A DNA stretch of 64,000 nt from Sinotaia quadrata. Its lineage: Eukaryota > Mollusca > Gastropoda > Architaenioglossa > Viviparidae. The stretch is taken from positions 91,947,135 through 92,011,134 of the forward strand of contig CM054180.1 of the NCBI GenBank assembly GCA_028829895.1, read 5' to 3'. A program made the position numbers and the translations under genes. Each line of letters starts with the position of its first letter. The stretch's first letter is position 1. Shown piece by piece: positions 1,998 through 37,981 of the stretch. Below the pieces are notes generated by a model that had not been told where the DNA came from, did no database searches, and was given only the letters and a program-made list of their open reading frames with translations.

Positions 1998-2802
1998 TGA
2001 CTAGTATAATTATTTTGTACTAATAGTAGTAAATTATTTTGTACTAATAGTAGTATAATTATTGTTTACTAATAGCAATAAAATTATTTTGTACTAATAA
2101 CAGTATAATTATTGTATATTAATGCAGAAAAAATATTTTGTACTAATAGCAGTATATTGATTGTATATCTATAGCAGTACAATTATTTTGTACTAACAGC
2201 AGTATGATTATTTTATAGCAATACATTAAAAATTATTTTGTACTAACAGCAGTATAATTATTTTATAGCAATACATTTAAAATTATTTTGTACTAATAGC
2301 AGTATAATTATTGTATACTAATTGCATTAAAATTATTTTGTACTAGTAGCAGTATAATTAAGATATGCTAATAGCAGTACCATTATTTTGTACCATTAGC
2401 AGTATAATTATTGTATAAAAATAGCATTATAATTATTATATATACATAGCAGAATAATTATTATATACCAGTAGCAGTATAATTATTATGTATCAATAAC
2501 AGTATAATTATTGTATAAAAATTGTATAAAATTATATTGTAGTAATAGCAGTATAATTATTGTATAAAAATAGCATTATAATTATTATATAAACATAGCA
2601 GTATAAGTATTGTATAAAAATAGCATTAATATTATTGTACTAAAATGGCAGTATAATTATTGTATAAAAATAGTAGTATAATTATTCTATACCAATAGCA
2701 GTATAATTATTATATACCAGTAGCAGTATAAGTATTGTATAAAATAGCAGTATAATTATTGTACAAAAATAGGAGTATAATTATTGTATAAAAATAGTAG
2801 TA

Positions 2803-2837
<35 letters not shown>

Positions 2838-4395
2838 GTATAAAATAGCAGTATAATTATTGTACAAAAATAGCAGTATAATTATTGTACAAAAATAGTT
2901 ATAATTATTATATACCAATAGCAGTATAAGTATTGTATAAAAATAGTAGTATATTTATTATATATCAATAGCAGTATAATTATGATATTCCAATAGCAGT
3001 ATAATTATTATATACCAATAGAGTATAATTATTATATACCAGTAGCAATATAAGTATTGTATAAAAATAGCAGTATAATTATTGTAAAAAATAGCACTAT
3101 AATTATTGTATACAAGTAGAGTATAATTATTATATACCAATAGAATTATAATTATTATATACCTATAGTAGTTTCATTATTAAATACCAATAGAGTATAA
3201 TTAATATATACCAAATAGCAGTATAATGATTGTATACCAATAGCAGTAATTATTGTATACCAATAAAATATAATTATTATATACCAATATAGTATAATTA
3301 TTATATACCAATAGAGTATAATTATGATATACAATAAAGTATAATTATTGTGTACTAATAGAGTATAATTATTGTGTACTAAGAGAGTATAAATATTATA
3401 TACCAATAGAGTATAATTATTATATACCAATAGAGTATAATTATTATATACACCAATAGAGTATAATTATTATATACCAATAGAGTATAAGTATTGTGTA
3501 CCAATAGAGTATAATTATTATGTACCAGTAGAGTATAATTATTATATACCAATAGAGTATATTTATTGTGTACCAATAGAGTATAATTATTGTGTACCAA
3601 TAGTGTATAATTATTATATACCAATAGAATATAATTATTGGTACCAATAGAGTATAATTATTGTGTACCAATAGAGTATAAGTATTATATACCAATAGAG
3701 TGTAATTATTGTGTACCAATAGAGTATAATTATTGTGTACCAATAGAGTATAATTATTATGTACCAATAGAGTATAATTATTGTGTACCAATAGAGTATA
3801 ATTATTGTATACCAATAGAGTATAATTATTATATACCAGTAGAGTATAATTATTGTGTACCAATAAAATTATAATTATTATATACCAATAGAGTATAATT
3901 ATTATATAATAGTAGAGTATAATTATTGTGTACCAATAAAATTATAATTATTATATACCAATAGAGTATAATTATTGTGTACCAATAGAGTATAATTATT
4001 ACATACCAACAGAGTATAATTATTACATACCAATAGAGTATAATTATTGTTTACCAATAGAGTATAATTATTGTGTACCAATAGAGTATAATTATTATGT
4101 ACCAATAGAGTATAATTATTATATACCAGTAGAGTATAATTATTGTGTACCAATAGAATTATAATTATTATATACCAATAGAGTATAATTATTGTGTACC
4201 AATAGAGTATAAATATTGTGTACCAATAGAGTATCATTATTATATACCAATAGAGTATAATTATTACATACCAATAGAGTATAATTATTACATACCAATA
4301 GAGTATAATTATTGTTTACCAATAGAGTATAATTATTACATACCAATAGAGTATAATTATTGTGTACCAATAGAGTATAATTATTGTATACTAAA
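1998..4395 (+). repeat. 2.4-kb array of a 24-bp AT-rich unit, ~100 copies
   Basis: The longest array in the window. The unit is ACCAATAGAGTATAATTATT plus four bases (GTGT or ATAT). The left third is a diverged form (TAATAGCAGTATAATTATTG) and includes a pure (TTA)n run near 2806-2836; the right two thirds are more homogeneous. With a period of 8 codons, several frames stay open on both strands; these are not genes. Confidence 0.97.
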
Positions 4396-21604: not shown

Positions 21605-22084
21605 TCCCCCCCACCATTACCAGATTACATTAATTGTATATGAATAGCAAATTCCATTCCACATATAACCAAATAAAGTTAATGTATTTAAACAACTATT
21701 TTCATTCCCCATTCCCATTATCATATTACATTAATTGATATATTTGAATAACTATTTCTATTCCCTACTCCCATTATCATATTACGTTAATTGATATTTT
21801 TAAACAACTATTTCCACTCCCCACTCCCATTATCATATTACGTTAACTTATATATTTGAACAACTATTTCCATTCCCCATTCCCATTATCATATTACGTT
21901 TAATTGATATACTTGAACAACTATTTCCACCACCCACCACCCACCACCCTTTGCAACATTTCATTATTTGAAGCATTTTATTAATTGTTGCTTTTAAATA
22001 ACTAATTCCATTTTTTCTCCTTGACGTATTATATTATGTGATGTATGTGAACAACTAATTGTTTTCCCACCCCCACTACCGCAG
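21605..22084 (+). repeat. ~57-bp array ending in the IGFBP acceptor
   Basis: Five to seven units with AACAACTATTTCC, then a C-rich run CCCACTCCCATTATC. The last unit is the functional pyrimidine tract and acceptor (AACAACTAATTG...CCCACTACCGCAG). An early unit also has CCATTACCAG. The array thus appears to be copies of the 3' splice-site region. Confidence 0.75.
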
Positions 22085-22292
22085 GACACTATCTGGTGCC
22101 ACTATCCCTGCCAGTGTCCGATAGAAGAGCTGACATGTCGCACTGGGGTGAGCATCATCAAGGACGGCTGTGGTTGTTGTTACATGTGCGCCAGGCAGCA
22201 GGGCGACATGTGTACTCCCCACGCTCGATGTGACGAAAAGAAAGAACTTTATTGTCAAAGCCCGTCAATCAACGAGACAGGTATTTGTAGAG
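22085..22292 (+). CDS. CCN exon: IGFBP domain
   Basis: The acceptor is a C-rich tract ending CTACCGCAG at 22084; the first codon is GAC in phase 0. Translation starts DTIWCHYPCQCP and contains the family signature GCGCCYMC (GCGCCxxC) followed by ARQQGDMC, with 12 cysteines in total, the canonical number for a CCN IGFBP domain. An N-E-T sequon lies near the end (SINETGIC). The exon ends AGAG|GTGAGT at 22292/22293, leaving phase 1, which matches the VWC acceptor. The same exon tail and donor are repeated in tandem downstream with the frame open to 22738, so the true exon end may vary (22292, 22358, 22424 or 22490). Domain identity is certain; the choice of donor is inferred. Confidence 0.93.
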
Positions 22293-23762
22293 GTGAGTCT
22301 TGCAATGAAGAACTGTTTTGTCAAAGCCCGTCAATCAACGAGACAGGTATTTGTAGAGGTGAGTCTTGCAATGAAGAACTGTTTTGTCAAAGCCCGTCAA
22401 TCAACGAGACAGGTATTTGTAGAGGTGAGTCTTGCAATGAAGAACTGTTTTGTCAAAGCCCGTCAATCAACGAGACAGGTATTTGTAGAGGTGAGTCTTG
22501 CAATGAAGAACTGTTTTGTCAAAGCCCGTCAATCAACGAGACAGGTATTTGTAGAGATAGGTATTGCAATGAAGAACTGTTTTGTCAAAGCCCGTCAATC
22601 AACGAGACAGGTATTTGTAGAGATAGGTATTGCAATGAAGAACTGTTTTGTCAAAGCCCGTCAATCAACGAGACAGGTATTTGTAGAGATAGGTATTGCA
22701 ATGAAGAACTGTTTTGTCAAAGCCCGTCAATCATCTAGGCAGGAATTTGTAGAGGTGAGTTTTGTAATGAATAAGAATGTATTTATAGAGTAGATGTTAA
22801 GGAATTAGAGGTATTTGTAGAGGTGAGTATCTGAGCATAAGAAGGTGTTAGTAGAAGTGAGTGTTAAGGAATGAGTAAGTATTCATCTACAAATATAAGA
22901 ATATTAACGAGATATAATATAATTTAAGATATAATATAATTTTAACAGTTATTTCGATGGACCATTCTCTTTGAAATAAGCGCATATAATTAGAATAGCT
23001 ATTTCAATGGACCATTTCATTTAAGTAAACATGCACATTTTATACAGTTATTTCATGGCATTAATTTTTATGAATTTGTAAAGTTATTTCTGTGTCTCAT
23101 TCTGATTTAAATAAACATACACAATTTATAGTTATTTCAAGAGGTTAGTTTCATTTGAATACACGTACATAATTTCTACATTGTTGATATTAATTTAAAT
23201 TATAAATTTATAAACATACTTAATTTGCATGTTCCTAGAGTCAATCGACAAAAATAATTTGCTTACATGTGGCAATTTACATTCTCACTTTCATTAAAAA
23301 CGCATTGTTCTATTTCCAAAGGATAATGACTTTGTTATCCTTGTATTAACAGACGTTAGTTTTGTGAGTAAGAAATAAAATTGAGATGTTGGCCTGAGTT
23401 CAGAATAACCTATTTTTCAAGAAACAATCATTTTTTATTTTACAGATAATCATACTTAAAATATAGGATTATTAGGTGCAATTAGATTATAATATGTTTA
23501 TTTAACTGGACTTTTAGTATAGCCGTATTCATTTAAGTGGACTCATAGTATAGCCGTATTTATTGGACTCTTATTATAGCCGTATTTATTTAAGTGGACT
23601 CTTAGTATAGCCGTATTCATTTAAGTGGACTCTTAGTATAGCCGTATTCATTTAAGTGGACTCTTAGTATAGCCGTATTTATTTAACTGGACATTTAATA
23701 TAACCGTAGTCATTTAACTGGACATTTAGTATAACCGCAGTCACTCTCTCTCTTTCTCTTAC

Positions 23763-23843
<81 letters not shown>

Positions 23844-26800
23844 TAAGCCTCTGTTACATTTAACTGAACTCTCAAGACAACATAATTAAACTATTTAAAT
23901 TGTTCGTAGTTTCTTTAATTGAAAATGGCTAGTTAACCAGTTCTATAATTTAAAATGGGTCTTATAAATTCTAATAATATTTCTGTTTTTCTTGTTACTG
24001 ACCTTACAGCCCGCGTGCAAAACCCTTGCCTTGTCGATGGAGTACTTTACAAAGATGGAGAGCAGTTTAAGCCGGATTGTTCGCGGGAGTGCACATGTCA
24101 AAACGGTTTCTATGGATGTGTCAGCAAATGTCCGCAAGACAGCCGCCCACCAGTTGGTGCCACCTGTCCGAATCCACAGTTGCTACCCGTCCCGGGCAAG
24201 TGCTGCAAGGAGTGGACGTGTCCTAAGCTGGATACCGGAAGTGAGGGAGGCAGTTTTCTAGATGGCGTGCACGGTTTGGAGAGCCAGGCTCTCATACTGC
24301 AGCGCCCATGGTGTAAGTGGTACCGGATAGTTTTCGAAATAACCGGCATGGTGTGAGTGGTACCAGATCGCTTGTGTTCCTTAATGGGTTACACTATTCT
24401 TGACTAGATCATTAGTGTTTCCTACTGGCTTTCACTTGATCCTAACTAGATAATTTGTATTACTTACAGGATAATACTTGGTCCTGACTGAATCATTTGT
24501 GCTACTTAAGGGTAATACTTGGTCCTGACTATATCATTTGTATTACTTACAGGGTAATACTTGGTCTGACTAGATCATTTGTATTACTTACAGGGTAATA
24601 CTTGGTCTGACTAGATCATTTGTATTACTTACAGGGTAATACTTGGTCCTGACTGAATCATTTGTGCTACTTACAGGGTAATACTTGGTTCTGACCAGAT
24701 CATTACTTACAGGGTAATACTTGGTCCTGACCAGATCTTTACTTACAGGGTAATACTTGGTCCTGTCCAGATCATTACTTACAGGGTAATACTTGGTCCT
24801 GTCCAGATCATTACTTACAGGGTAATACTTGGTCCTATTTTGGCATCCAGGTAACAATTTCACCATTCCCACTAATACAGGTGTTCATGTGTAATGTATC
24901 AATGTGTTATTAAATAATAACTGAATAAAATAATATTAAATAAATAATTAAAAACAGCATTCATGTTTTGATTCTTTTTATTTGGACCTCGAGTGTGTAG
25001 TCGGCCCCCGAACTGCTGTTTGATAGTTAATGCGGCCCTCGAAAAGTTTGGAGACCCCTGACCTACAGGGCAATACTTGGTCTTGAATAGATATTTAGTG
25101 TTAGGCCTAATTAAAGGGTAATACTTGGTCCTGACAATTCGTTTGTGGTATGGGTTAACTTGGTCCTTACTTGCATTTTTTACTGACTTACACTTGACAT
25201 TTGTCGTGGTATTTACTTACTGTATGAAACGTGCTATTGAGATTATTACTTTATTAATTTATTACAGTCGATATTGACTAGATCTCATTTATGTTATATA
25301 TTGCCTTACAGAAGGTATTTAAAATCATTATTATGTTACACTTAAACTTACTAGATATTTTCCGTGGACTGTATTACACTTGGTACAAATAAGTAATTAC
25401 ACTTGGTACTGACAAGATAATTACATTTGGTACTGACTAGATAATTACATTTGGTACTGACAAGATAATTAGATTTGGTACTGACTATTTAATTACACTT
25501 GGTACTGACTATTTAATTACACTTGGTACTGACAAGATAATTACATTTGGTACTGACTAGATTATTACATTTGGTACTGACAAGATAATTACATTTGGTA
25601 TTAACTTTTTAATTACACTTGGTGCTGACAAGATAATTACATTTGGTATTAACTTTTTAATTACACTTGGTACTGGCAAGATAATTACATTTGGTACTGA
25701 CTATTTAATTACACTTGGTACTGACAAGATAATTACATTTGGTATTAACTTTTTAATTACACTTGGTACTGACAAGATAATTACATTTGGTACTGACTAT
25801 TTAAGTACACTTGGTACTGACAAGATAATTACATTTGGTACTGACTATTTAATTACACTTGGTACTGACAAGATACTTACATTTGGTACTGACAAGATAA
25901 TTACATTTGGTACTGACTATTTAATTACACTTGGTACTGACAAGATAATTACATTTGGTACTGATTAGATTATTACATTTGATACTGACAAGATAATTTT
26001 CATTTGGTACTGACTAGATCATTTCACTTGGTATTGGCAAGATAATTACAGTTGGTACCGATTAGATCATTACACTTGGTATTGGCAAGATAATTACATT
26101 TGGTACTGACTAGATCATTACACTTGGTACTGACTAGATAATTACACTTGGTACAGATTAGATAAATACTCTTGGTACTGACTAGATAATTATATTTGAT
26201 ACAGATTAGGTAAATACACTTGGCACTGACTACGCTCCAAAAGTATTAATAAAAAAAGTGCGTGGTCTTTAAAGAGTGAAGCGAAACAGTAGTCTACTCC
26301 GGTTTTTGGCATTAAGAACTCACTAAGTGGGTTTCTAATAATTGTAATGTAGTCCACTCCGGGTTTGGCATTAAGAACTCACTGAGTGGGTTTCTAATAA
26401 TTGTAATGTAGTCTACTCCGGTTTTTGGCATTAAGAACTCACTAGTGGGTTTCTAATAATTGTAATGTAGTCCACTCCGGTGTTGACATTAAGAACTCAC
26501 TTAGTGGGTTTCTAGTAATTGTAATGTAGTCCACTCCGGTTTTGGCATTAAGAACTCACTTAGTGGGTTTCTAATAATTGTAATGTAGTCCACTCCGGTT
26601 TTGGCATTAAGAACTCACTAGTGGGTTTCTAATAATTGTAATGTAGTCTACTCCGGTTTTGGCATTAAGAACTCACTTAGTGGGTTTCTAATAATTGTAA
26701 TGTAGAAAACACCTCAAAAGAAACCTGCCAGCCTTCTTATTTACTTCTTCTTAAACCGTAAATACATTCCCACCTATGGCATTGTCATTGGGAAGGGAAA

Positions 26801-29800
26801 AAAGTGTTACAGCTTATTTCAGCTCCACGGGAAAGGAAGATAAAATGTGTTCTATGTTACATTTTTGCTCCATGAGAAGGAAAGATAAAGTGTTTCATGT
26901 GTTACAACTTTGTTCTACTCCATAGAAATGGAAAATGAAGTGTGTTACCTATGTTATAATTTAATTCTTCTCCATAAAGTGTGTTACATGTGTTATAATT
27001 TAATTCTACTCCATAGGAAGGGAAGATAAGTGTGTCACCCATGTTCATGTAGACGGAGAATCTGGCTTATAACTCAGAACACCGTTTCTAATGTTTCTGA
27101 ATGCTCAGATCAAACACGTTTTCTAGTGTATTTATTTTCGGGTCTTACAATATTTCTAGTGTATTCATTTTCGGGTCTTACAATATTTCTAGTGTATTTA
27201 TTTTCGGGTCTTACAATATTTCTTGTGTATTTATATGTAGCAACGTTTTACAGTGCATTATTTTTAGATCTTACAATATTTCCGGTATATTTATATGCAG
27301 ATCTAACAACACAGTTTCCAATGTATTTATTTCAGATCTAACAATATTTCAAGTATATTTATGTTTTGATTTAACATCATTTTCCAGTGTATTTAAGTTC
27401 TGATCTAGAATTACATTTTTACCAATGAATTTATATTCAAAATTAACAATCTTCCCCACTGTATTTTATGTTCAGAGCTAATAAAATTTCGAAGTCATTG
27501 ATGCCTAGATCTAACAACTTTTCAAAGTATTGATGTTCAGATCTAACAACTTTCCCAATATATTCATGTTCAGATCTAACAACTTTTCTAGTGTATTATT
27601 GCTCAGACCAAACAAGTTTCCAAAGCATTGCTGCCTAAATCTAAAAAGTTTTCCAGTGTATTGATGTTAAGATCTAATAAGTTTTCCATTGATAATTAGA
27701 TCTAACAACGAGCAAAGAAAGTACGTCCACAACGACGACTACCATCAAGCCTTACTGTCACGTGACCTCTACTGAGTGGTCCCCATGTTCAGTAACCTGT
27801 GACGCAGGCATGTCTGTACGCTTCGTCACTGACCCAACCACGTGCAGCTCACGACCGGACCGCCGTATCTGTCTTCTTAGACCATGTGGCCAGATTGTCA
27901 ATACTTATGTAAGTATTATACCTTGCTACATTGACTTGTATATCTTGCTACATTGACTTGTAAGGCTTAGTGACCACGTGGTCAATAATTTCGTAAGTAT
28001 ACAGTGCTACATTGACTTTTATACCAGCTACTTTGACTTTAAGGCTTAGGATCACGTTGTCAATACATAAGCATACCTTGCTTCATTGTCTTGCAAGTTT
28101 TTGTGACCTCATTGTCAATACTTATGTAAATATACCTTGCTATATTTGTCTTGTGAGGCTTTGTGACCACGCCATTCTTATAAATATACCACTCCTACAT
28201 TTGCCTTGTAAGGCTTTGTATTGTCAATAACACAGTAAATATTCTTTGCTACATTTGCCTTGTGACTTCGTTGTCAACACTTTTGTAAGTATATCTAGCT
28301 ATATTTGTCTTGTAAGACTTTGTGACTCTGCCGTCAGTACTTTCTACATTTTGTAAGGTTTCAAGTTCAGGTTGTCAATTTTTATGTAAGTATACTTTGC
28401 TTCATTTATCTTGTAAGTCTTTGTTTCTAGGTTGTCAATAATTTTGTCAGTATTTCTTAATGTATTTGTCGTCTTGATCTGTGCGGCCAAGTTGTCAATA
28501 TTTTTGTCAATATTTCTTAATGTATTTGTCGACTTGATCTGTGCGGCAAGGTTGTCACTATTTTTGTCAACATTTCTTAATGTATTTGTCGTCTTGATCT
28601 GTGCGGCAAGGTTGTCAATACAGTTGTTTTTTAATACTTTTTAATCTTGCTCCACAAGATATTTGATGAGTGTTAATGCCGTGGAATAAATATGTAGCTG
28701 CAGCAGTTGTTCTGAAAAGAATATGTAATAATTGCTTGTTTACTCTCTGTTCATTTTCAGGACGCTATTTGTCATTATCCAGTTTCAATATTCCTTGTCC
28801 CGGTACCAAGTTAATTAATCATTGTTTTATGATAGTGCAATGCGCATTTCCTTTTCTATTAAGTTAGAATATATGAGGTTTCCTGAGCTATGTCGGCCTG
28901 CTTAAACTCTATCATACATCACTCACTATCTTTGATCATAATACATTATTTCTTTGAGAAGAAATAATAATAAAATCAACATATGATTTCCATTTCCCAT
29001 TTTGTCTTCTGACCCTTAGACAAGAGAATTTATATTTTAAAATTTCACTGTAAGCTGTACTATAAATATAAATTACTGTGAAAAACTGAAGTAAATATCA
29101 GAATGGAGTGTATGGCTTAGAGTGTGAGGAGTGCACGAATTGAAGCTACTGCGTAAATAACAACAACCTTCTACTATCTACTACTGAGTCACTTGTTACT
29201 ACCTACTACTGAGTCACTTGTTATTACCTACTACTGATTCACTTGTTACTATCTACTACTGAGTCACTTGTTACTACCTACTACTGAGTCACTTGTTACT
29301 ACCTGCTACTGAGTCACTTGTTATTACCTACTACTGAGTCACTTGTTATTACCTACTACTGAGTCACTTGTTACTACTTACTATTGAGTCATTTGTTACT
29401 ATCTACTACTGAGCCACTTTTTACTATCTACTATTGAGTCATTTGTTACTATCTACTACTGAGTCACTTGTTACTACCTACTATTGAGTCATTTGTTACT
29501 ATCTACTACTGAGTCACTTGTTACTATCTACTGAGTCATTTGTTACTATCTACTACTGAGCCACTTTTTACTATCTACTATTGAGTCATTTGTTACTATC
29601 TACTACTGAGTCATTTGTTACTACCTACTATTGAGTCATTTGTTACTATCTACTACTGAGTCATTTGTTACTATCTACTACTGAGTCACTTGTTACTATC
29701 TACTGAGTCATTTGTTACTATCTACTACTGAGTCACTTATTCCTTACTACCTACTAGTGAGTCACTTGTTACTACCTACTACTACTGTGTCACTAGTTAT

Positions 29801-32800
29801 TACCTTCTATTGAGTCAGTATCTACTATGCTATTGAGTCAATGGCTACTACTATTCTATTTGAACAGGTTTCTGCACTAAACAATCTAGTTTCTGTTAGA
29901 CAAGTTTGCTCACTTAATGATTTAGCTGCTGTTAATGTGTGAGACTGGTTTGCTCACTTAGTGATCTAGGTATTGTTAATGTGTGAGACAGGTTTGCTCA
30001 CTTAGTGATCTAGGTATTGTTAGTGTGTGAGACAAGTTTGCTCACTTAGTGATCTAGGTATTGTTAGTGTGTGAGACAAGTTTGCTCACTTAGTGATCTA
30101 GGTATTGTTAATGTGTGAGACAAGTTTGCTCACTTAGTGATCTAGGTATTGTTAGTGTGTGAGACAAGTTTGCTCACTTAGTGATCTAGGTATTTTTAGT
30201 GTGTGAGACAAGTTTGCTCACTTAGTGATCTAGGTATTGTTAGTGTGTGAGACAAGTTTGCTCACTTAGTGATCTGCTAAATTTATGCACTTAATGATCT
30301 AGGTACTGTCTGCATTTGAGACAAGTTTGCTTACTTAATTATATAGATATTATTAGCGTGTGAGAAATTTCTGCCCACTAAAGGATCTAACTCTTATTAA
30401 TGTTTCAGACAAATTTATGAACTAAATAATCTAGGTACTGTTAGAGCAAACAGGCCTGTTAGTGTAGAGAATAATATGTAGAGTTCTTGAACTCTAAGAG
30501 TAATTCGAGCAGCGGTGTTTGGAACCTTGTGAAGTTTGTGCAGCAGGCAATGTGATAGATTGATTGAAGAAAGTTTGTACAGCAGGCAGTGTGATAGATT
30601 GATTGAAGCAGGTAGAAGAAAGTTGCAATAATCAAGTTTTGACAGCACTAAAAATGCTAGAATTTCATGATTTCAGCTGAGAGAGGGTTGCCTTAGCATG
30701 CATGTATTTATTGCTTGCTGACATAATGACAAACTACATTCCAATATGATATTCAGCTTCTCTGGATTGATTGTAAAAGACAATCTGAATGTCAGGATGA
30801 TATAATTTTGCAATAACCAATTGAGCTGAATTCAGTTTTTTGCAGTAAATTTGTAAATTTTCACTTTATCTTCCGTATCATTGCTTATTCAAACTGTACA
30901 TTTGCAAATTTATATTAATGATATGTTTATTTTTGTACTATATTTATTTATAATATGTTGACAGTTTGCCTGTGAATTCATCATTATGTTTAGTTATAGT
31001 ATTTTTACATTTGCTGTGTCATAAATAAGTTGTTACTGTTTATGTACATATATCTATAAATCCAGTAATGTTACTGTTTATATACATTCATTAGAAACTC
31101 AAATGATATGTTACTGTTTATATACATTTACTACAATCAGAAGCTAATAATATAAGAGCTGAGTCAGTTCATCATTAGCTCCGTTAGAAGATTGTTTATT
31201 TCGAAAAACAATGCCGTGAACATGAGACAAATTTCAAAACATATATGTTGATAACCCTTTACAGTTAACATTGGTGACATCAAACGCTGCGGAGACCTGG
31301 TAAATTATAATTTTAACTTATAGAACACTAAGGATCAAGCATAGTAAGACAAAACCCAGAGCATTTTAATGATTGAAAAGCTTATTATAATGGATCATGT
31401 CGTCAAATGTTCCATGCAAGAAGACCAGAACGTCACTTAATGTTCTATTCAGCTGAGCATTGACTGAGTATATAATTTAAAATATAATCTGTAAATCTGA
31501 TTAAGGCTGAATTAAGATAATATTAAGAAAAAGGAAATTTGTCATAATTAATGTTTGTACAGTGTTTAATACATCTAAACATGTACATATTAGGAAGTCA
31601 CAGTTTCATTTAGAGCGGTCCCTATGTTATGCCCCGTTTAGACATAAGGAATTTTACAACTATAACCCATAACACTGAAGAGACATAAGGAATTTTACAA
31701 CTATAACCCATAACACTGAAGAGACATAAGGAATTTTACAACTATAACCCATAACACTGAAGAGACATAAGGAATTTTACAACTATAACCCATAACACTG
31801 AAGAGACATAAGGAATTTTACAACTATAACCCATAACACTGAAGAGACATAAGGAATTTTACAACTATAACCCATAACACTGAAGAGACATAAGGAATTT
31901 TACAAATATAACCCATAACACTGAAGAGACCTAAGGAATTTTACAACTATAACCCATAACACTGAAGAGACCTAAGGAATTTTACAACTATAACCCATAA
32001 CACAAAAAAGAGACATAAGGAATTTTACAACTATAACCCATAACACAAAAAAGAGACATAAGGAATTTTACAACTATAACCCATAACACAAAAAAGAGAC
32101 ATAAGGAATTTTACAACTATAACCCATAACACTGAAGAGAACTGTGAAAATAATGATTCGAAGATCTACAATTCGTAGGCCGTCTTAGATATCTTAATAT
32201 TCTTAGATCTCTATAGAAAATGGACCACTTCATACTTCGCAGACTTCTGCCACAATGTATTTATACTTTCTAACTCTGTTTTCATTCGGACCAATTTGGA
32301 GTTCTCATTTGGACCAGTTTTGAGGCACGTTTATAATGAAAAATGATAGCTCATATCTGTTTGTACTGTGCGGTTAAGTCTTCACAACGTGCCATAGTTT
32401 ATAATGACAGACGATAGCTCATGTTTGTTTGTATTGCGCGGTCATGTTTTCACAACGTGCCATAGTTTATAATGACAGACGATAGCTCATGTTTGTTTGT
32501 ACTGTGCGGTCATGTCTTCACAACGTGCCATAGTTTATAATGACAGACGATAGCTCATGTTTGTTTGTGTTGCGCGGTCATGTTTTCACAACGTGCCATA
32601 GTTTATAATGACAGACGATAGCTCATGTTTGTTTGTACTGTGCGGCCAAGTCTTCACAACGTGCCATAGTTGAATATAATTTTCCACCGAGTGTTTCCTT
32701 CCTGGAATCAAGTTATTCATTTTGATGCCTGTCGTTGAACTATGTCCATATTGCTAAATGACTTAGGCTTGCAGTCAGTGTTATAATTTGTTTGTCATTG

Positions 32801-35800
32801 AACTAAGTCCATCTTGCTAAATGTCTTGAAGTTGCAGTCAGTGTTATAATTTCTTTTGTCAGTGAACCAAGTCCACTTTGCTAAGTGTCTTAGACTTGCT
32901 GTCAGTGTTATAATTTCTTCTGTCAGTGGACTAAGTCCACCTTGCCGAGTGTTCTACTTTGAAGTGAGTGTTATCTATTCTTATATCATTCATTAGACTG
33001 TCTACCCGCCGAATGCTCTGTTCTTAAAGTTCATGTTGACAAGACGTACGTGAGAAGAATAGGACCTACTTGTTGGTAATTTTTGATAACTCAGTACAAT
33101 CATTGTGTAAACAAAATTACTTCACATTTTTATAAAAGCTCTTTGCAAGTTTATACGAAGAAAAAAAGGAGATGAAGCCAATTATGAGATTGAAAAATGA
33201 ATTTAAGAGAGGTAAAAATGGATTAAATAATATATATATATATGTATGACCAGATGTTATGCATGGAATTTTTAATAATTTCCTATTTAACAGCATGTAG
33301 TTTCCTGACATAAGCATTTCAGTGAATTATTAATAGAACTGGGCTCTGTTTCTTTCTGCATCGAGCAGTGAAGCTATGGCAATTACAGACACGACGCCTG
33401 CAGGAGTTTGATTGTAATTCTAGATACTCCTTATGCTGTGGGCATATGCGGCACCCATGTGGCGCCATTTCATCCTGCCGTTGGCTACCCTAGACTCATC
33501 AAAGAAAATAAAATGAGGGAACTTTTGTAACACTCTACGCCGCACGCCCTCGCTAACTGAGAACGAAGAGAAAAGACTGGCGTGTTTTTACCCATTCCAA
33601 AGAGCGGTTGCCTCCTAACAAGCGCTCGTTCGGATCGTGGTAACCTGCCGATTGGTCAAGTGAACACTGAAGAACGTCTCGTTAGCCGATAGAGAATCCG
33701 CACCAGATCGCAGTGACGATCGATATATCCTTAATAAACAGAAACTGCTTTGGGGAATTCAATAAACGTTGCAATTATTATCCTTTCCACCGTGTTCTGT
33801 CGTGGTGGATGGCGTTCTTAAGTCTTCATATTTGCTGCTAACTGTTACTTCGAAAAGGCTATTGGGCTTAAGGCTTCCTCATTACGGAAAGCTATTGGGC
33901 TTGAGGCTTCCTCATTACCAAGGAAGCATGGAGACTCCTCTATACAGGTTCACTTCATTGCCGTTATATTGGTGTATTATAAAGGTCATTCAGATAATTA
34001 GTTTTGGTTTTGAATACGTATTTTGGATAAATGAGTAATTAAAGCTTTAAAAATTTTAGTGAGGAGATGATAGAATTGAAGACATAATTATATGTACAAC
34101 ACTTATTTCGTGGGAGCGAATGCTTACCATAGATGCAGATAGCAGGGTATTTATCCAGCACTGGCTTACCTTACAATCCAGGCAAGAAGTCGAATATCCA
34201 CTTAAACAACATTGACGTCATATTTCCGAGTTACTATCAATTTTGTAATAATCAAAAGCTAAATTACAGTTATAAAATGTAGATATATTTATTCTAAAGA
34301 TGTCATTTAACACGTGCATAAAGAACAGTGTTCTAAAGATAGATAGCGATACAAAATGAGACTACAGTTTTCTAAAGACAGATAGCGATACAAAGTGAGA
34401 CAACAGTGTTCTAAAGACAGATAGCGATACAAAATGAGACTACATTTTTCTAAAGTTAGGTGTTGATACAAAGTAAGATAATAGCTTTCTAAAGATAGAT
34501 GACAATATCAAGTAAGATAACTATGTTCTAAAGATAGAAAGAGATACCAAGTGAGACAACAGAGCTTTATATGTAGATGACTATACTAAGCGAGACAAAA
34601 GTGTTCTAAAGATAGAAAGAGATACCAAATGAGACAACAGAGCTTTATATGTAGATGACTATACTAAGCGAGACAAAAGTGTTCTAAAGATAGAAAGAGA
34701 TACCAAGTGAGACAACAGAGCTTTATATGTAGATGACTATACTAAGCGAGACAAAAGTGTTCTAAAGATAGAAAGAGATACCAAGTGAGACAACAGAGCT
34801 TTATATGTAGATGACTATTCAAAGCGAAACAGTTAAAGTGATTCTGAAGTTGGCAATAACATGGAGTTAATTCTAAAAATAAATACTGACATTTTTAAGG
34901 AGAATTCAGATATGACAAGAACTTTATAGTAATTAGGTTGGTCTTAAAGAGGGCGAAAACATCCAGACGTACTTAAATCTATATTAAAGATGAACTATTA
35001 TCATTATTATGTACTTGTTTTAAAATATTTCGATATCACCGTGTCTTATTTAAACAAATCTTAGAGACAACAAAAACGCTGAGATTATAAAGACAATCAA
35101 CTTAAACTGATCATAAAAATGATGAGAACACTTTGCTGTATTTAAATTGTTTTAAAGACAGAGAGACCACTTTGCTGTACTTATATTGTTTTAAAGATAT
35201 CGAAAACACTGTACCGTACCTACAATGTTTTAAAGACAGCGAGACCACTATGCTGTATAGATAGCGAGAACACTATTCTGTACTTACAATGTTTTAAAGA
35301 TAGCGAGAGCACTATTGTTTACCTACATTATTTTAAAGATAGCGAGAACGTTATGTTTACTTACAATGTTTTAAAGATAGCGAGAACACTATTCTGTACT
35401 TACAATGTTTTAAAGATAGCGAGAGCACTATTGTTTACCTACATTATTTTAAAGATAGCGAGAACGTTATGCTTACTTACAATGTTTTAAAGATAGCGAG
35501 AACATTATGTTATACTTACATTGTTTTAAAGATAGCGAGAACGTTATGCTTACTTACAATGTTTTAAAGATAGCGAGAACATTATGTTATACTTACATTG
35601 TTTTAAAGATAGCGAGAACGTTATGCTTACTTACATTATTTTAAAGATAGCGAGAACGTTATGCTTACTTACATTGTTTTAAAGATAGCGAGAACACTAC
35701 GCTGTACTTACAATGTTTTAAAGATAGCGAGAACGTTATGCTTACTTACATTGTTTTAAAGATAGCGAGAACACTACGCTGTACTTACAATGTTTTAAAG

Positions 35801-37981
35801 ATAGCGAGAACGTTATGCTTACTTACATTGTTTTAAAGATAGCGAGAACACTAAGCTGTACTTACAATGTTTTAAAGATAGCGAGAACGTTATGCTTACT
35901 TACATTGTTTTAAAGATAGCGAGAACACTAAGCTGTACTTACAATGTTTTAAAGATAGCAAGAACGTTATGCTTACTTACATTGTTTTAAAGATAGCGAG
36001 AACACTAAGCTGTACTTACAATGTTTTAAAGATAGCAAGAACGTTATGCTTACTTACATTGTTTTAAAGATAGCGAGAACGTTATGCTTACTTACATTGT
36101 TTTAAAGATAGCGAGAACACTAAGCTGTACTTACAATGTTTTAAAGATAGCAAGAACGTTATGCTTACTTACATTGTTTTAAAGATAGCGAGAACACTAC
36201 GCTGTACTTACAATGTTTTAAAGATAGCGGGAAATCTTTGCTGTGCTTAAATTGATTAATAAGGAAAAGAACACGAAGATGCACTTAAATTGTTTAAAAA
36301 GATAAAGAGAGCATCTTGTTATCCTTACATTGATCATATAGGTTATGTTAACACCATGGTATACTTAAACTAAAACACTAATATACAATTAAATCGATCT
36401 TAAATTTAGCTAGAATAGTATAATGTAGACAAGTGAGAGCATTGTGATTTATTTAAGTCGATCTTAAAGTTTGTAAGAATACCATGATGTACTTAAACGT
36501 GTCTTAAAACTGTCTAGAACACCGTCATGTACATAAAGCCGCATTTGATTTTTCAAAGAGATTGCATCTGTTCTAATCTCGAAGCTTTGCGATTTAATGA
36601 AGAATGAAATAAAAGATGGTTTAATAAATAAATACGACAAGAATGATTTTTGACTGTAGGACGCGATTAAGTATAATATTGCTATTTCTGTTCGGTAACT
36701 AACGCTGTACTCATCGTTACTTTCAGAATCACAACACTCTACCATTAATAGTAATTAATATTGTGACAGGATTTCAGAAACACAACACTATACCATTAAT
36801 AGTAATTAATATTGTGACAGGATTTCAGAATCACAACACTCTACCATTAATAGTAATTAATATTGTGACAGGATTTCAGAATCACAACTCTCTACCATTA
36901 ATAGTAATTAATATTGTGACAGGATTTCAAGCGATAACTGTAGGCCTACAGCTATTCATATTAACTAATAATGTTCTAATTACTGTGAAGTGCAGGGATG
37001 TGACATCTACGCTGCCATAAAAATGAACTAATAATATTCTAATCATTGTGATATATAGTAGTGACAAGTGCACTGCCATTAGCTTTAGCAAATAATTTTG
37101 TAATTCTTGTGACATGCAGGAAGGCAGCAAATGCACTGCCATTAGCTTTAGCAAAAAGTAATATTGGGACGTGACCACTACACTGCCATTAATGTGAACT
37201 AATGAAGCTCTATTTTTGTGACGTGTATAAATGCGAGAAGTACATTGTCAGTAGCATTAAATAATATTCTCAGTACTCTGAAGTGCAGAGATGAGACCAC
37301 TACTCTTCCATTAACACTGGCTAAAAATATTGTAATTATTGTGAAGCGCAGGATTTGGGCCACTATAATGTCATCAACATTAACTATTTATTGTTCTAAT
37401 TATTGTGACGTGCAGGAACGCGACCACCACAATGCCATTAACAATAACTAATGATATTCTAATTATAATTATTGTGACGTGCAGAGACTTATCCAAAACA
37501 TTGCCAATAACGATAAATAATAATATTCTAATTATTGTGACGTGCAGTGACGTGACCACAAAGTGCTATTAACATGAAATAATAATATTCTAATTATTGT
37601 GACGTGTAGAGACGCTGCCGCCATAGTACCATTAACTTGAAATAATAATGTTCTAATTATTATGATGTGCAGGGACGCGACAAGTGCACACCAACAACAC
37701 GAAGTGCTCACAAGCTGCACGTGCATCATCAAGACTGCATCAGCGTGCGTCAGTACCGCCTGAAGTGGTGCACGTCTTGCCGGGAAAACCGTTGCTGTTA
37801 CCCGAAGCGCTCGCGTACACGCTCCATGCGGTTCGAGTGCACGGGAGGAGTGCGGTTAACGCTGCAGTTCATGTGGATCAAGAAGTGTCGGTGCGATGAC
37901 AAATGTTATCGGCAAGATAAGCACAGACGCACCTATCGCTGGCGCCGCCAATACGGGCGTTCTCGTTTGGGTGGAGGTTGA
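22085..37981 (+). CDS. CCN-family matricellular growth factor (CTGF/CYR61/NOV-like), four visible coding exons, 5' end missing
   Basis: Spliced gene with coding exons 22085-22292, 24010-24312, 27700-27908 and 37673-37981, giving 342 residues plus stop without the signal peptide; vertebrate CCN proteins are about 350-380 residues. The domains run IGFBP, VWC, TSP1, CT, the full four-module CCN order, with 12+10+6+10 = 38 cysteines as in the family. Phases match at each join: 1/1, 1/1 and 0/0. CCN proteins are secreted and bind integrins, heparan sulfate proteoglycans and growth factors (known for the family). The introns are about 1.7, 3.4 and 9.8 kb and consist mainly of minisatellites. The initiator exon is not firmly identified, so this is partial at the 5' end. 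All four domains are present, unlike CCN5, which lacks CT; the paralogue cannot be assigned. Confidence 0.93.
22245..22870 (+). repeat. 66-bp tandem array seeded by the IGFBP exon end and its donor
   Basis: Eight or more copies of a 66-bp unit made of the last part of the IGFBP exon plus the first bases of the intron. Donors GTGAGT are intact at 22293, 22359, 22425 and 22491. The next three copies (22557, 22623, 22689) read ATAGGT at that place, and later degenerate copies regain GTGAGT at 22755, 22823 and 22857. As 66 is 22 codons, the frame stays open from the exon to TAG at 22736. Each unit encodes ESCNEELFC...NETGIC with three Cys and a sequon. Confidence 0.95.
22875..23490. other. intron sequence, mostly unique
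   Basis: AT-rich; loose recurrences of CAGTTATTTCAATGGACCAT at 22940-23160. Confidence 0.5.
23495..23745 (+). repeat. 31-bp array, ~8 copies
   Basis: Units TTTAAGTGGACTCTTAGTAT then AGCCGTATTCA. Confidence 0.93.
23764..23840 (+). repeat. (CA)n microsatellite
   Basis: About 38 CA dinucleotides, 170 bp upstream of the VWC exon. Confidence 0.98.
24010..24312 (+). CDS. CCN exon: von Willebrand factor C domain and start of hinge
   Basis: The acceptor is CTGACCTTACAG at 24009. With the phase-1 G from the IGFBP exon the reading is A-RVQNPCLVDGVLYKDGEQF and onward. It has 10 cysteines, with the CTCQNGFYGC segment and the closing CCKEWTC, matching VWC of CCN proteins. Two donors keep phase 1: GGAA|GTGAGG at 24241 and TGGT|GTAAGT at 24313. 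I prefer the second: the 72 bp between them are GC-rich and open, the site is a perfect GTAAGT, and this junction is duplicated just downstream (24355) and seeds the following repeat array. The first would give a 231-bp exon and a shorter hinge. VWC binds BMP/TGF-beta-type ligands in known CCN proteins. Confidence 0.9.
24300..24840 (+). repeat. ~38-60-bp array seeded at the VWC donor
   Basis: Begins with two copies of the donor region, GGTGTAAGTGGTACC (24311) and GGTGTGAGTGGTACC (24351), then about ten units with ACTTACAGGGTAATACTTGG and GACTAGATCATTTGTATT. The unit GGTAATACTTGGTCCTGA aligns with the donor-side sequence. Confidence 0.8.
24838..25060 (-). mobile_element. hAT-like non-autonomous element or fragment
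   Basis: Read on the minus strand, the right end at 25060 begins CAGGGGTCTCCAAACTTTT and continues with GGGCCGCATTAAC, typical of hAT (Charlie/Tip100-like) termini. It interrupts the VWC-donor repeat array, which resumes at 25061 with ACCTACAGGGCAATACTTGG. No transposase is present. I could not find a convincing second terminus or 8-bp target duplication, so the left boundary is approximate. Confidence 0.5.
25061..26230 (+). repeat. 24-bp array (ACTTGGTACTGAC family)
   Basis: About 45 units of roughly 24 bp, ACTTGGTACTGACAAGATAA with TTAC. They alternate between ACTTGG/CATTTGG and GACAAG/GACTAT forms, giving a 48-bp higher period. It is the same sequence family as the array starting at the VWC donor, so the two together span 1.9 kb of intron. 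Confidence 0.9.
26270..26705 (+). repeat. 59-bp tandem array, 7 copies
   Basis: Units begin GGCATTAAGAACTCAC and include TGTAGTCCACTCCGG. Copies are nearly identical with 1-2 bp indels at CTTAGTGGG/CTAGTGGG. Confidence 0.95.
26780..27040 (+). repeat. ~55-bp degenerate array, 4-5 copies
   Basis: Units contain CTCCATAGGAAGGGAAGAT, then AGTGTGTTACATGTGTTATA and TTTAATTCTACTC. Lengths vary. Confidence 0.7.
27095..27699 (+). repeat. ~36-45-bp array ending in the TSP1 acceptor
   Basis: About 15 units with TTCCAGTGTATTTATGTTCAG followed by ATCTAACAAC. The TSP1 exon itself starts ATCTAACAAC after ATTAG at 27699, so each unit carries an acceptor-like CAG plus the exon's first bases. Units near 27130-27230 use a GGGTCTTACAATATTTC variant. 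Confidence 0.85.
27700..27908 (+). CDS. CCN exon: Thr-rich hinge and thrombospondin type 1 repeat
   Basis: Starts after ATAATTAG at 27699 in phase 1; an alternative acceptor AGCAAAG at 27717 is also phase 1. It encodes a Ser/Thr-rich hinge (LTTSKESTSTTTTIKP), probably O-glycosylated and protease-accessible by analogy, then YCHVTSTEWSPC...VTC...TTC...RICLLRPC. Six cysteines and the WSPC motif identify the CCN-type TSP1 module. The exon ends AACACTTAT-like sequence (AATACTTAT|GTAAGT, donor at 27909) in phase 0, fitting the phase-0 CT acceptor. Edges of this exon are echoed in repeat arrays on both sides. The TSP1 of CCN proteins contributes integrin, VEGF and proteoglycan contacts (family knowledge). 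Confidence 0.92.
27872..28645 (+). repeat. ~65-75-bp degenerate array seeded by the TSP1 exon end and its donor
   Basis: Units resemble CTTAGTGACCACGTGG, then TCAATACTTATGTAAGTATA and CCTTGCTACATT, matching the exon end (CTTAGACCATGTGGCC...TCAATACTTATG) with its GTAAGTAT donor. GTAAGT persists at several units (around 27993, 28287, 28388) and is mutated elsewhere. The last three units near 28430-28620 form a regular ~62-bp block with CTTGATCTGTGCGGC. Confidence 0.85.
28650..29160. other. unique intron sequence
   Basis: Nothing recognised. Confidence 0.5.
29165..29830 (+). repeat. 25-bp array, ~25 copies
   Basis: Units GAGTCACTTGTTACTACCTA then CTACT. Deleted copies (CTATCTACTGAGTCA) recur in a pattern suggesting a higher-order unit. 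Confidence 0.95.
29870..30350 (+). repeat. 44-bp array, ~9 copies
   Basis: Units GAGACAAGTTTGCTCACTTA, GTGATCTAGGTATTGTTAGT, GTGT. Confidence 0.95.
30351..31630. other. mostly unique intron sequence
   Basis: A two-copy repeat with TTTGTGCAGCAGGCAATGTG at 30530-30605; otherwise nothing recognised. Confidence 0.5.
31636..32142 (+). repeat. 41-bp array, ~12 copies
   Basis: Units GAAGAGACATAAGGAATTTT then ACAACTATAACCCATAACAC. Three late copies share CACAAAAAAGAGAC, marking a secondary amplification. Confidence 0.97.
32330..32675 (+). repeat. 68-bp array, 5 copies
   Basis: Units TAGTTTATAATGACAGACGA, TAGCTCATGTTTGTTTGTAC, then TCTTCACAACGTGCCA. Copies alternate TACTGTGCGG and TGTTGCGCGG/TATTGCGCGG. 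Confidence 0.95.
32705..32975 (+). repeat. ~65-bp degenerate array, 4 copies
   Basis: Units CAGTCAGTGTTATAATTT, CATTGAACTAAGTCCATCTT, GCTAAATGTCTT. Confidence 0.85.
33335..33765. other. non-repetitive GC- and CpG-richer island inside the last intron
   Basis: About 430 bp with normal complexity (e.g. GCGCCATTTCATCCTGCCG, ACGCCGCACGCCCTCGC) in the middle of AT-rich arrays. No long ORF and no exon with paired splice sites that I can support. It could be a regulatory element or an old mobile element. Confidence 0.4.
34315..34835 (+). repeat. 39-bp array with 78-bp dimer
   Basis: Left part: 39-bp units TTCTAAAGACAGATAGCGAT. Right part: a 78-bp dimer combining TTCTAAAGATAGAAAGAGAT and CTTTATATGTAGATGACTAT halves, four copies. 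Confidence 0.93.
35130..36240 (+). repeat. 38/39-bp array with 77-bp higher-order repeat, ~28 units
   Basis: Type A (39 bp) has GCGAGAACACTAAGCTGTAC; type B (38 bp) has GCGAGAACGTTATGCTTACT; both start GTTTTAAAGATA. From about 35640 A and B largely alternate, forming a 77-bp dimer. On the minus strand each unit carries ATGTAAGTA, a donor-like motif. Confidence 0.96.
36700..37672 (+). repeat. ~51-70-bp array ending in the CT-exon acceptor
   Basis: The first four units (36710-36930) are regular, with CCATTAATAGTAATTAATAT then TGTGACAGGATTTCAG. Later units have TTCTAATTATTGTGACGTGCAG followed by GACGCGACCAC and GCCATTAAC. The real exon is preceded by TTCTAATTATTATGATGTGCAG-like sequence and starts GGACGCGACAAG, so branchpoint-like CTAAT, acceptor and exon start are all in the unit. 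At least seven upstream copies keep GTGCAG, ATGCAG or GTGTAG. Confidence 0.88.
37673..37981 (+). CDS. CCN terminal exon: C-terminal cystine-knot (CT) domain
   Basis: The acceptor is TATGATGTGCAG at 37672; phase 0. It encodes GRDKCTPT...HQDC...LKWCTSC...NRCCYPKR...FEC...IKKCRCDDKC: ten cysteines with the CT pattern seen in CCN2/CCN3 (C, C, C-x2-C, CC, C, C-x-C-x3-C). TGA is at 37979-37981. After the last cysteine there is an Arg-rich tail of about 25 residues (contains RRTYRWRRQYGRSR), more basic than I expect for vertebrate CCN tails; the RWRR tetrad fits a furin-type R-x-R-R site. CT mediates dimerisation and heparin binding in the family. GC content is far above the flanking introns. Confidence 0.95.
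   Translation, partial: GRDKCTPTTRSAHKLHVHHQDCISVRQYRLKWCTSCRENRCCYPKRSRTRSMRFECTGGVRLTLQFMWIKKCRCDDKCYRQDKHRRTYRWRRQYGRSRLGGG

Follow-up and report, generated by a model that had tools for sequence, protein, structure and literature searches.

In a CCN gene of the snail Sinotaia quadrata, tandem repeats flanking the exons contain the splice junctions themselves, which raises the question whether splice-junction DNA provokes tandem duplication, whether the spare splice sites are kept because they are used, or whether duplication simply runs across junctions. We examined the junctions of this gene in a window of 64,000 nucleotides (the whole stretch of DNA analysed, part of a 984-Mb animal genome in 26 contigs) and those of other genes of the same genome. 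The reading that we favour, with a probability of roughly three in four, is that the CCN arrays are minisatellites of the type called mirages, produced by general tandem duplication to which splice junctions are no barrier.

The four exons of the gene model (Table 1) join in phase to give one open frame of 342 amino acids, and each exon matched its own domain (IGFBP, VWC, TSP1 or cystine-knot) above the Pfam cut-off. The splice sites are predicted, and a first exon with a signal peptide was not located. The best relatives were gastropod CCN proteins, the closest being the CCN protein of Babylonia areolata (72% identity, 85% of the query covered). In an alignment that took in 5 of the 42 hits the joins ICR/ARV, RPW/YLTT and NTY/GRDKC were confirmed, and by this comparison at the protein level all three lie inside continuous conserved stretches of CCN proteins. 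The join of the IGFBP exon, ICR/ARV, corresponds to VCK/ARV in Babylonia, the linker across the VWC donor agrees with ...LILQRP.YLTT of the same species, with which the TSP1 exon edges are also conserved, and GRDKCTPTTR of the CT exon is common to gastropod CCNs. An alternative VWC donor at 24239 was ruled out, as it breaks the frame.

Table 1. Exons and junction-linked repeats of the CCN gene (window positions; a slash marks the exon-intron boundary)
Feature	Position	Strand	Basis and details
CCN exon, IGFBP domain	22085..22292	+	Pfam PF00219, 1.4e-9; predicted acceptor cag/GACACT, donor AGAG/gtgagt
CCN exon, VWC domain	24010..24312	+	Pfam PF00093, 1.4e-9; predicted donor TGGT/gtaagt
CCN exon, TSP1 domain	27700..27908	+	Pfam PF19035, 1.5e-15; predicted acceptor ttag/ATCTAACAAC, donor TAT/gtaagt
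CCN terminal exon, cystine-knot (CT) domain and stop	37673..37981	+	Pfam PF00007, 4.8e-8; frame
66-bp array at IGFBP donor	22242..22883	+	TRF and unit listing; eight units, the first being the exon end, followed by decayed copies
Weak dimer at VWC donor	24303..24368	+	22 nt at 91%, copy at +40, about 6 exonic nt
Degenerate array of about 33 bp at TSP1 acceptor	27120..27709	+	TRF; unit ...ttcag/ATCTAACAAC; four spanning copies (relaxed limits)
Degenerate array at TSP1 donor	27909..28620	+	Copies of ...TTGTCAATACTTAT/gtaagtat; seven spanning copies, +84 to +657
Degenerate array of about 63 bp at CT acceptor	36963..37672	+	TRF; unit ...attgtgacgtgcag/GGACGCGAC; seven spanning copies, -63 to -677

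Seven CCN junctions were searched for copies spanning the junction, either with standard limits (score of at least 17, at least 9 exonic nt, 650 nt of intron) or with relaxed limits (score 14, 6 exonic nt, 1000 nt of intron). With the standard limits such local copies were observed at four of the seven junctions, the IGFBP donor, the TSP1 acceptor, the TSP1 donor and the CT acceptor, all of which lie inside tandem arrays whose unit includes the splice site and the exon edge. The VWC donor added one copy under the relaxed limits only, and the IGFBP and VWC acceptors had none with either set. The phenomenon in the CCN gene is largely real, and the list given by the first-pass annotation is partly confirmed: four of the five junctions that it had named stand, the fifth (VWC donor) does so weakly, the VWC acceptor is without a clear case as it had stated, and its probable sixth junction, the IGFBP acceptor, has to be struck off.

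The exon side of the units was also compared with 300 shuffles, using edges that were off by 1-2 nt at some junctions. The signal was strong at the IGFBP and TSP1 donors (0 of 300 shuffles as high at each) and modest at the TSP1 and CT acceptors (9 and 3 of 300, respectively), and at the IGFBP acceptor the exon edge did not stand out from the shuffles, 110 of 300 of which scored as high. On visual inspection, the 56-bp array near the latter site (21685-21929) bears a likeness only to the pyrimidine-rich stretch. Of the unit at the IGFBP donor, which begins at 22242, about 51 nt are exonic; the TSP1 donor unit has 25 exonic nt, and the acceptor units have about 10 (TSP1) and 11 (CT). For the two acceptors the exon-side probe scored better than 94 of 98 (TSP1) and 98 of 98 (CT) cross-gene comparisons.

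In the IGFBP donor array four units, the exon unit included, retain GAG/GTGAGT, copies 5-7 share GAG/ATAGGT, in which the donor is gone, and the eighth and later copies are decayed. The best copies of this array are near the exon (Kendall tau -0.91). Such polarity was absent from the other three CCN arrays (tau -0.05 at the TSP1 donor, -0.15 at the CT acceptor and +0.18 at the TSP1 acceptor), so that the earlier generalization, copies best near the exon and decaying away from it, describes the IGFBP donor and none of the other three. Several identical units in a row at 22308-22505 point to recent turnover, as far as one assembly can tell. As a separate observation, the exon frame stays open through seven units of the 66-bp array (22242-22738); read-through or use of the decoys would therefore extend the CCN protein by 22-residue repeats that contain cysteine.

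The control set consisted of 83 exons, with their flanking DNA, that belong to other genes of the snail and were obtained by protein-family searches with PF00007 (7 exons, the CCN one being left out) and PF00069 (the remainder). For 47 of the 166 edges no predicted site exceeded the score limit; with these removed, 119 junctions defined by script-predicted splice sites remained. With the standard limits, spanning copies were observed at 13 of the 119 junctions, compared with 2 of 2380 when the introns were those of other genes. The first-pass annotation had named a lack of such linkage in other genes as the result that would speak against it; linkage was found. Two control edges were duplicates of paralogues, and after their removal stricter settings gave 8 to 13 positives of 117 (null 0 to 1 of 1755), or 7 to 10 of 82, the nulls being 0 to 2 overall. 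A first test using exon-side probes had yielded 6 of 83 edges with a score of at least 14 versus 3 of 3392 cross-gene comparisons, and all six proved on inspection to be junction-spanning tandem copies. Among them were the L052 and L030 donors, the L043 donor, where two near-perfect copies are spaced by 50 nt, and the L001 acceptor, where two exact copies have a spacing of 42 nt. Some of the 13 positives are weak, namely the L062 donor (none of its copies has GT, and 9-11 nt are exonic), the L042 acceptor (score 17) and the L026 donor, whose junction falls in a gap. Among control junctions with at least three copies polarity was mixed (tau -1 at L049 and L052, -0.67 at L060 and -0.26 at L062), and it was opposite at the L030 and L042 donors (+0.33).

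The likely mechanism is unremarkable, with duplication occurring everywhere, being purged from exons and being tolerated across junctions. Local tandem duplication, presumably by replication slippage or unequal exchange, would be ongoing throughout the non-coding DNA of the snail, and selection would remove duplications that fall within exons. A duplication straddling a junction would leave one intact exon with a working exon-proximal site, the spare copies going into the intron, and would therefore be tolerated like any intronic duplication; it is because the exon-proximal site still serves that duplication could run across splice junctions. Repeated rounds would then create arrays of decoy splice sites and exon scraps, which later drift. 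Related snails have conserved exon edges, from which we infer that the direction was from exon to array.

Decoys might instead be kept for use, the arrays providing alternative sites through which the protein gains in-frame repeats. The clearest case would be the IGFBP donor array, where 22, 44 or 66 residues could be added: its copies to +198 are in frame and open, and three live decoys of this kind have a 9-mer identical to that of the authentic donor. Against this, the donor is lost in copies 5-7 of the same array, and extra copies of the 22-residue stretch, the product of the 66-bp repeat, were absent from all five aligned gastropod CCN proteins (5 of 42 hits). Spanning copies numbered 60 in all, spread over 17 junctions (5 CCN and 12 control), and 42 of them retained GT or AG. 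Of these live decoys 22 were in frame, but only 4 of the 42 were also free of stops, three of them belonging to the IGFBP donor and one to the L060 acceptor. The nearest live decoy was in frame at 7 of 13 junctions, a proportion that points in the direction of use but has a p value of 0.10. Selection for frame was also considered, as the periods at first looked like multiples of three, and was rejected when the effect was gone on these junction-to-decoy distances; for TRF arrays of 20-120 bp the periods were distributed as 93, 76 and 85 by remainder 0, 1 and 2. The core of the nearest decoy was identical to the authentic core at the IGFBP, L043, L052 and L030 donors and at the L001 acceptor. 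Splicing at most of the same-core decoys would change the reading frame or lead to a stop. Probably, therefore, it is the exon-proximal site that serves, or else other products are lost.

The state of the splice dinucleotides might in part also have argued for use of the decoys. In an unmasked pooled count AG was mismatched in 0 of 40 cells at acceptors versus 88 of 574 cells elsewhere (p 0.004), and GT was mismatched in 24 of 81 cells at donors versus 201 of 1438 (p 0.0005). Twelve of these 24 mismatches came from one doubtful donor, L062, and when the IGFBP donor was set aside, 0 of 38 cells were mismatched at the four remaining CCN junctions in this count. When the site was masked before copies were sought in the CCN arrays, GT or AG was intact in 5 of 11, 7 of 9, 2 of 5 and 6 of 9 copies versus all-dinucleotide means of 0.57, 0.66, 0.51 and 0.85; neither special retention nor special loss was seen in these arrays, and conservation of the dinucleotides by selection was rejected as the signal had gone. 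We read the unmasked pattern as detection bias, judging from the masked control of the CCN arrays alone. Maintenance of decoys for use appears unlikely to us, and of the two options that the first-pass annotation had offered for the decoys, selected or tolerated, the former did not survive these comparisons, whereas tolerance remains the best fit.

The same annotation had alternatively proposed that splice-junction DNA is a hotspot of tandem duplication, for instance through R-loops or U1-linked pausing; on this reading introns would grow outward from their ends. The spanning copies of the control set (13 of 119 junctions) and of the CCN gene (4 of 7) would agree with this, as would the somewhat higher frequency at donors than at acceptors (9 of 53 versus 4 of 66, p 0.077). 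A hotspot and the mere lack of a barrier can be separated by comparing exon interiors, junctions and introns. The same probe geometry was moved into introns and exon interiors, giving pseudo-junctions at 119 or 85 positions. Intron pseudo-junctions were positive at 22 of 119 (+60), 22 of 119 (+120), 11 of 85 (+200), 21 of 85 (+300), 17 of 85 (+400) and 21 of 85 positions (+500), that is, at 13-25%, and in exon interiors none of 119 was positive at either -70 or -100. The observed junction rate (11%) lies between the two, and therefore junctions are not enriched over introns. The intron rates were equal or higher under eight other settings as well, stricter ones among them. With 24-nt probes the profile had the same slope, from 0 in the exon through 6-7% at its edge to 10-16% over the initial 150 nt of the intron and 13-20% deeper in the intron, with 9.6% at +200. 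The junction rate was below that at intron position +300 (13 of 119 versus 21 of 85, p 0.013); its difference from the near intron (13 of 119 versus 22 of 119) was not significant (p 0.14), so that a mild junction effect may exist. Together with the polarity, which was present in only one of four CCN arrays, these data make a hotspot quite improbable.

An origin of the arrays in a mobile or satellite family, of which they would be remnants and whose splice-like motifs would be due to chance, hardly deserves credence and was rejected: minisatellites are indeed dense in the window, but the CCN units, as had been claimed from the start, contain the splice site with their own exon edge and are local to it, with one 18-nt match in L004 as the sole exception in the window and 77 loci.

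General tandem duplication agrees with the repeat content of the locus. Tandem arrays make up 54% of the CCN gene span (22293-37672), 41% of the window and 14% of the 58 fetched loci, and the CCN arrays are dense because the locus itself is array-dense; intron pseudo-junctions of the CCN gene were positive at 5 to 7 of 7. Junction-linked arrays account for about 2.7 of the 14.9 kb in the three CCN introns, or 18% (coordinates summed by hand). Arrays of all kinds contribute 54%, and the suggestion that duplicated junctions explain how the introns are built is not supported. Overall, the earlier interpretation is partly supported. The largest array of the window by TRF score is a 24-bp repeat of about 98 copies at 2003-4391. 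A perfect (AC)38 run is located at 23765-23841, in the intron upstream of the VWC exon, whose acceptor has no junction array.

The first-pass annotation knew of no named system of this kind, but the structure is that of the mirages, named in amphioxus (PMC3087553, PMC3902484). Mirages are minisatellite-like tandem duplications of exon/intron boundaries, found in the amphioxus globins BflGb6 and BflGb9 (PMC3087553) and in amphioxus PGBD5 and troponin C (TnC) (PMC3902484). The globin paper also cites the amphioxus Adh3 case (Canestro et al. 2002) and other amphioxus loci, gives the RT-PCR products of the globins as normal and proposes a route to new introns (PMC3087553); a role in intron evolution is proposed for mirages (PMC3087553, PMC3902484). 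As in amphioxus, the tandem units of the snail span a donor or an acceptor and include the exon edge along with intron (at 4 of 7 CCN junctions, with a fifth weakly so, and at 13 of 119 control junctions), 5' and 3' boundaries are both affected, and many but not all copies retain AG or GT (42 of 60 here). The snail differs in that the host is a mollusc, not a cephalochordate, the arrays are more decayed, five junctions of one gene are hit (one of them weakly) and the rate was sampled across other genes. Normal splicing was checked in amphioxus by RT-PCR (PMC3087553), whereas the snail junctions are predicted, and their open spliced frame speaks only indirectly for regular splicing.

Models of intron gain in which, as here, tandem duplication supplies the splice sites are older and documented for potato RdRp, vertebrate ATP2A1 and near intron pairs of Drosophila (PMC4974935, PMC2891723). 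There, a new intron arises inside an exon; in the snail, by contrast, existing introns lengthen, and their positions fit the conserved CCN joins. The IFI6 (6-16) minisatellite carries several splice donors, and introns derived from tandem arrays in human were reportedly described by Zhuo et al. in 2007. Both resemble the present arrays in having minisatellite units with splice sites, but they are single cases or alternatively spliced introns. A literature search of open-licence papers, which is weak evidence of absence, found neither a mollusc mirage case nor a genome-wide rate. What is new here is the mollusc case, which takes mirages beyond single genes of lancelets, and the sampled rate, a first one, of 13 of 119 junctions.

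As a tentative reading, which we would not press, about 1 in 10 splice junctions of this genome could lie in an array with identical or near-identical decoys, the site being chosen by its exon-proximal position and not by its sequence. Junction duplication would then continually feed intron growth and, as in the array at the CCN IGFBP donor, supply ready-made repeat peptides in frame. Since most decoys would ruin the protein if used, the genome would, on the same tentative footing, amount to a large natural experiment on site choice. If the exon-proximal site is truly used among identical decoys, such junctions would constitute a test bed for splice-site choice and a measurable route of intron lengthening. 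Three aspects are worth following: the mollusc host, the rate sampled across other genes, and the live in-frame decoys of the IGFBP donor array.

Two observations concern individual control loci. At the end of a kinase-gene exon (L030:1700-2031) the coding stretch itself seems to hold one repeat unit already, and the true donor may therefore be one unit upstream of the predicted one. The cystine-knot exons of L003 and L004 (C4, about 108 kb apart) agree in match span and resemble each other at their edges; the two are probably a tandem gene pair.
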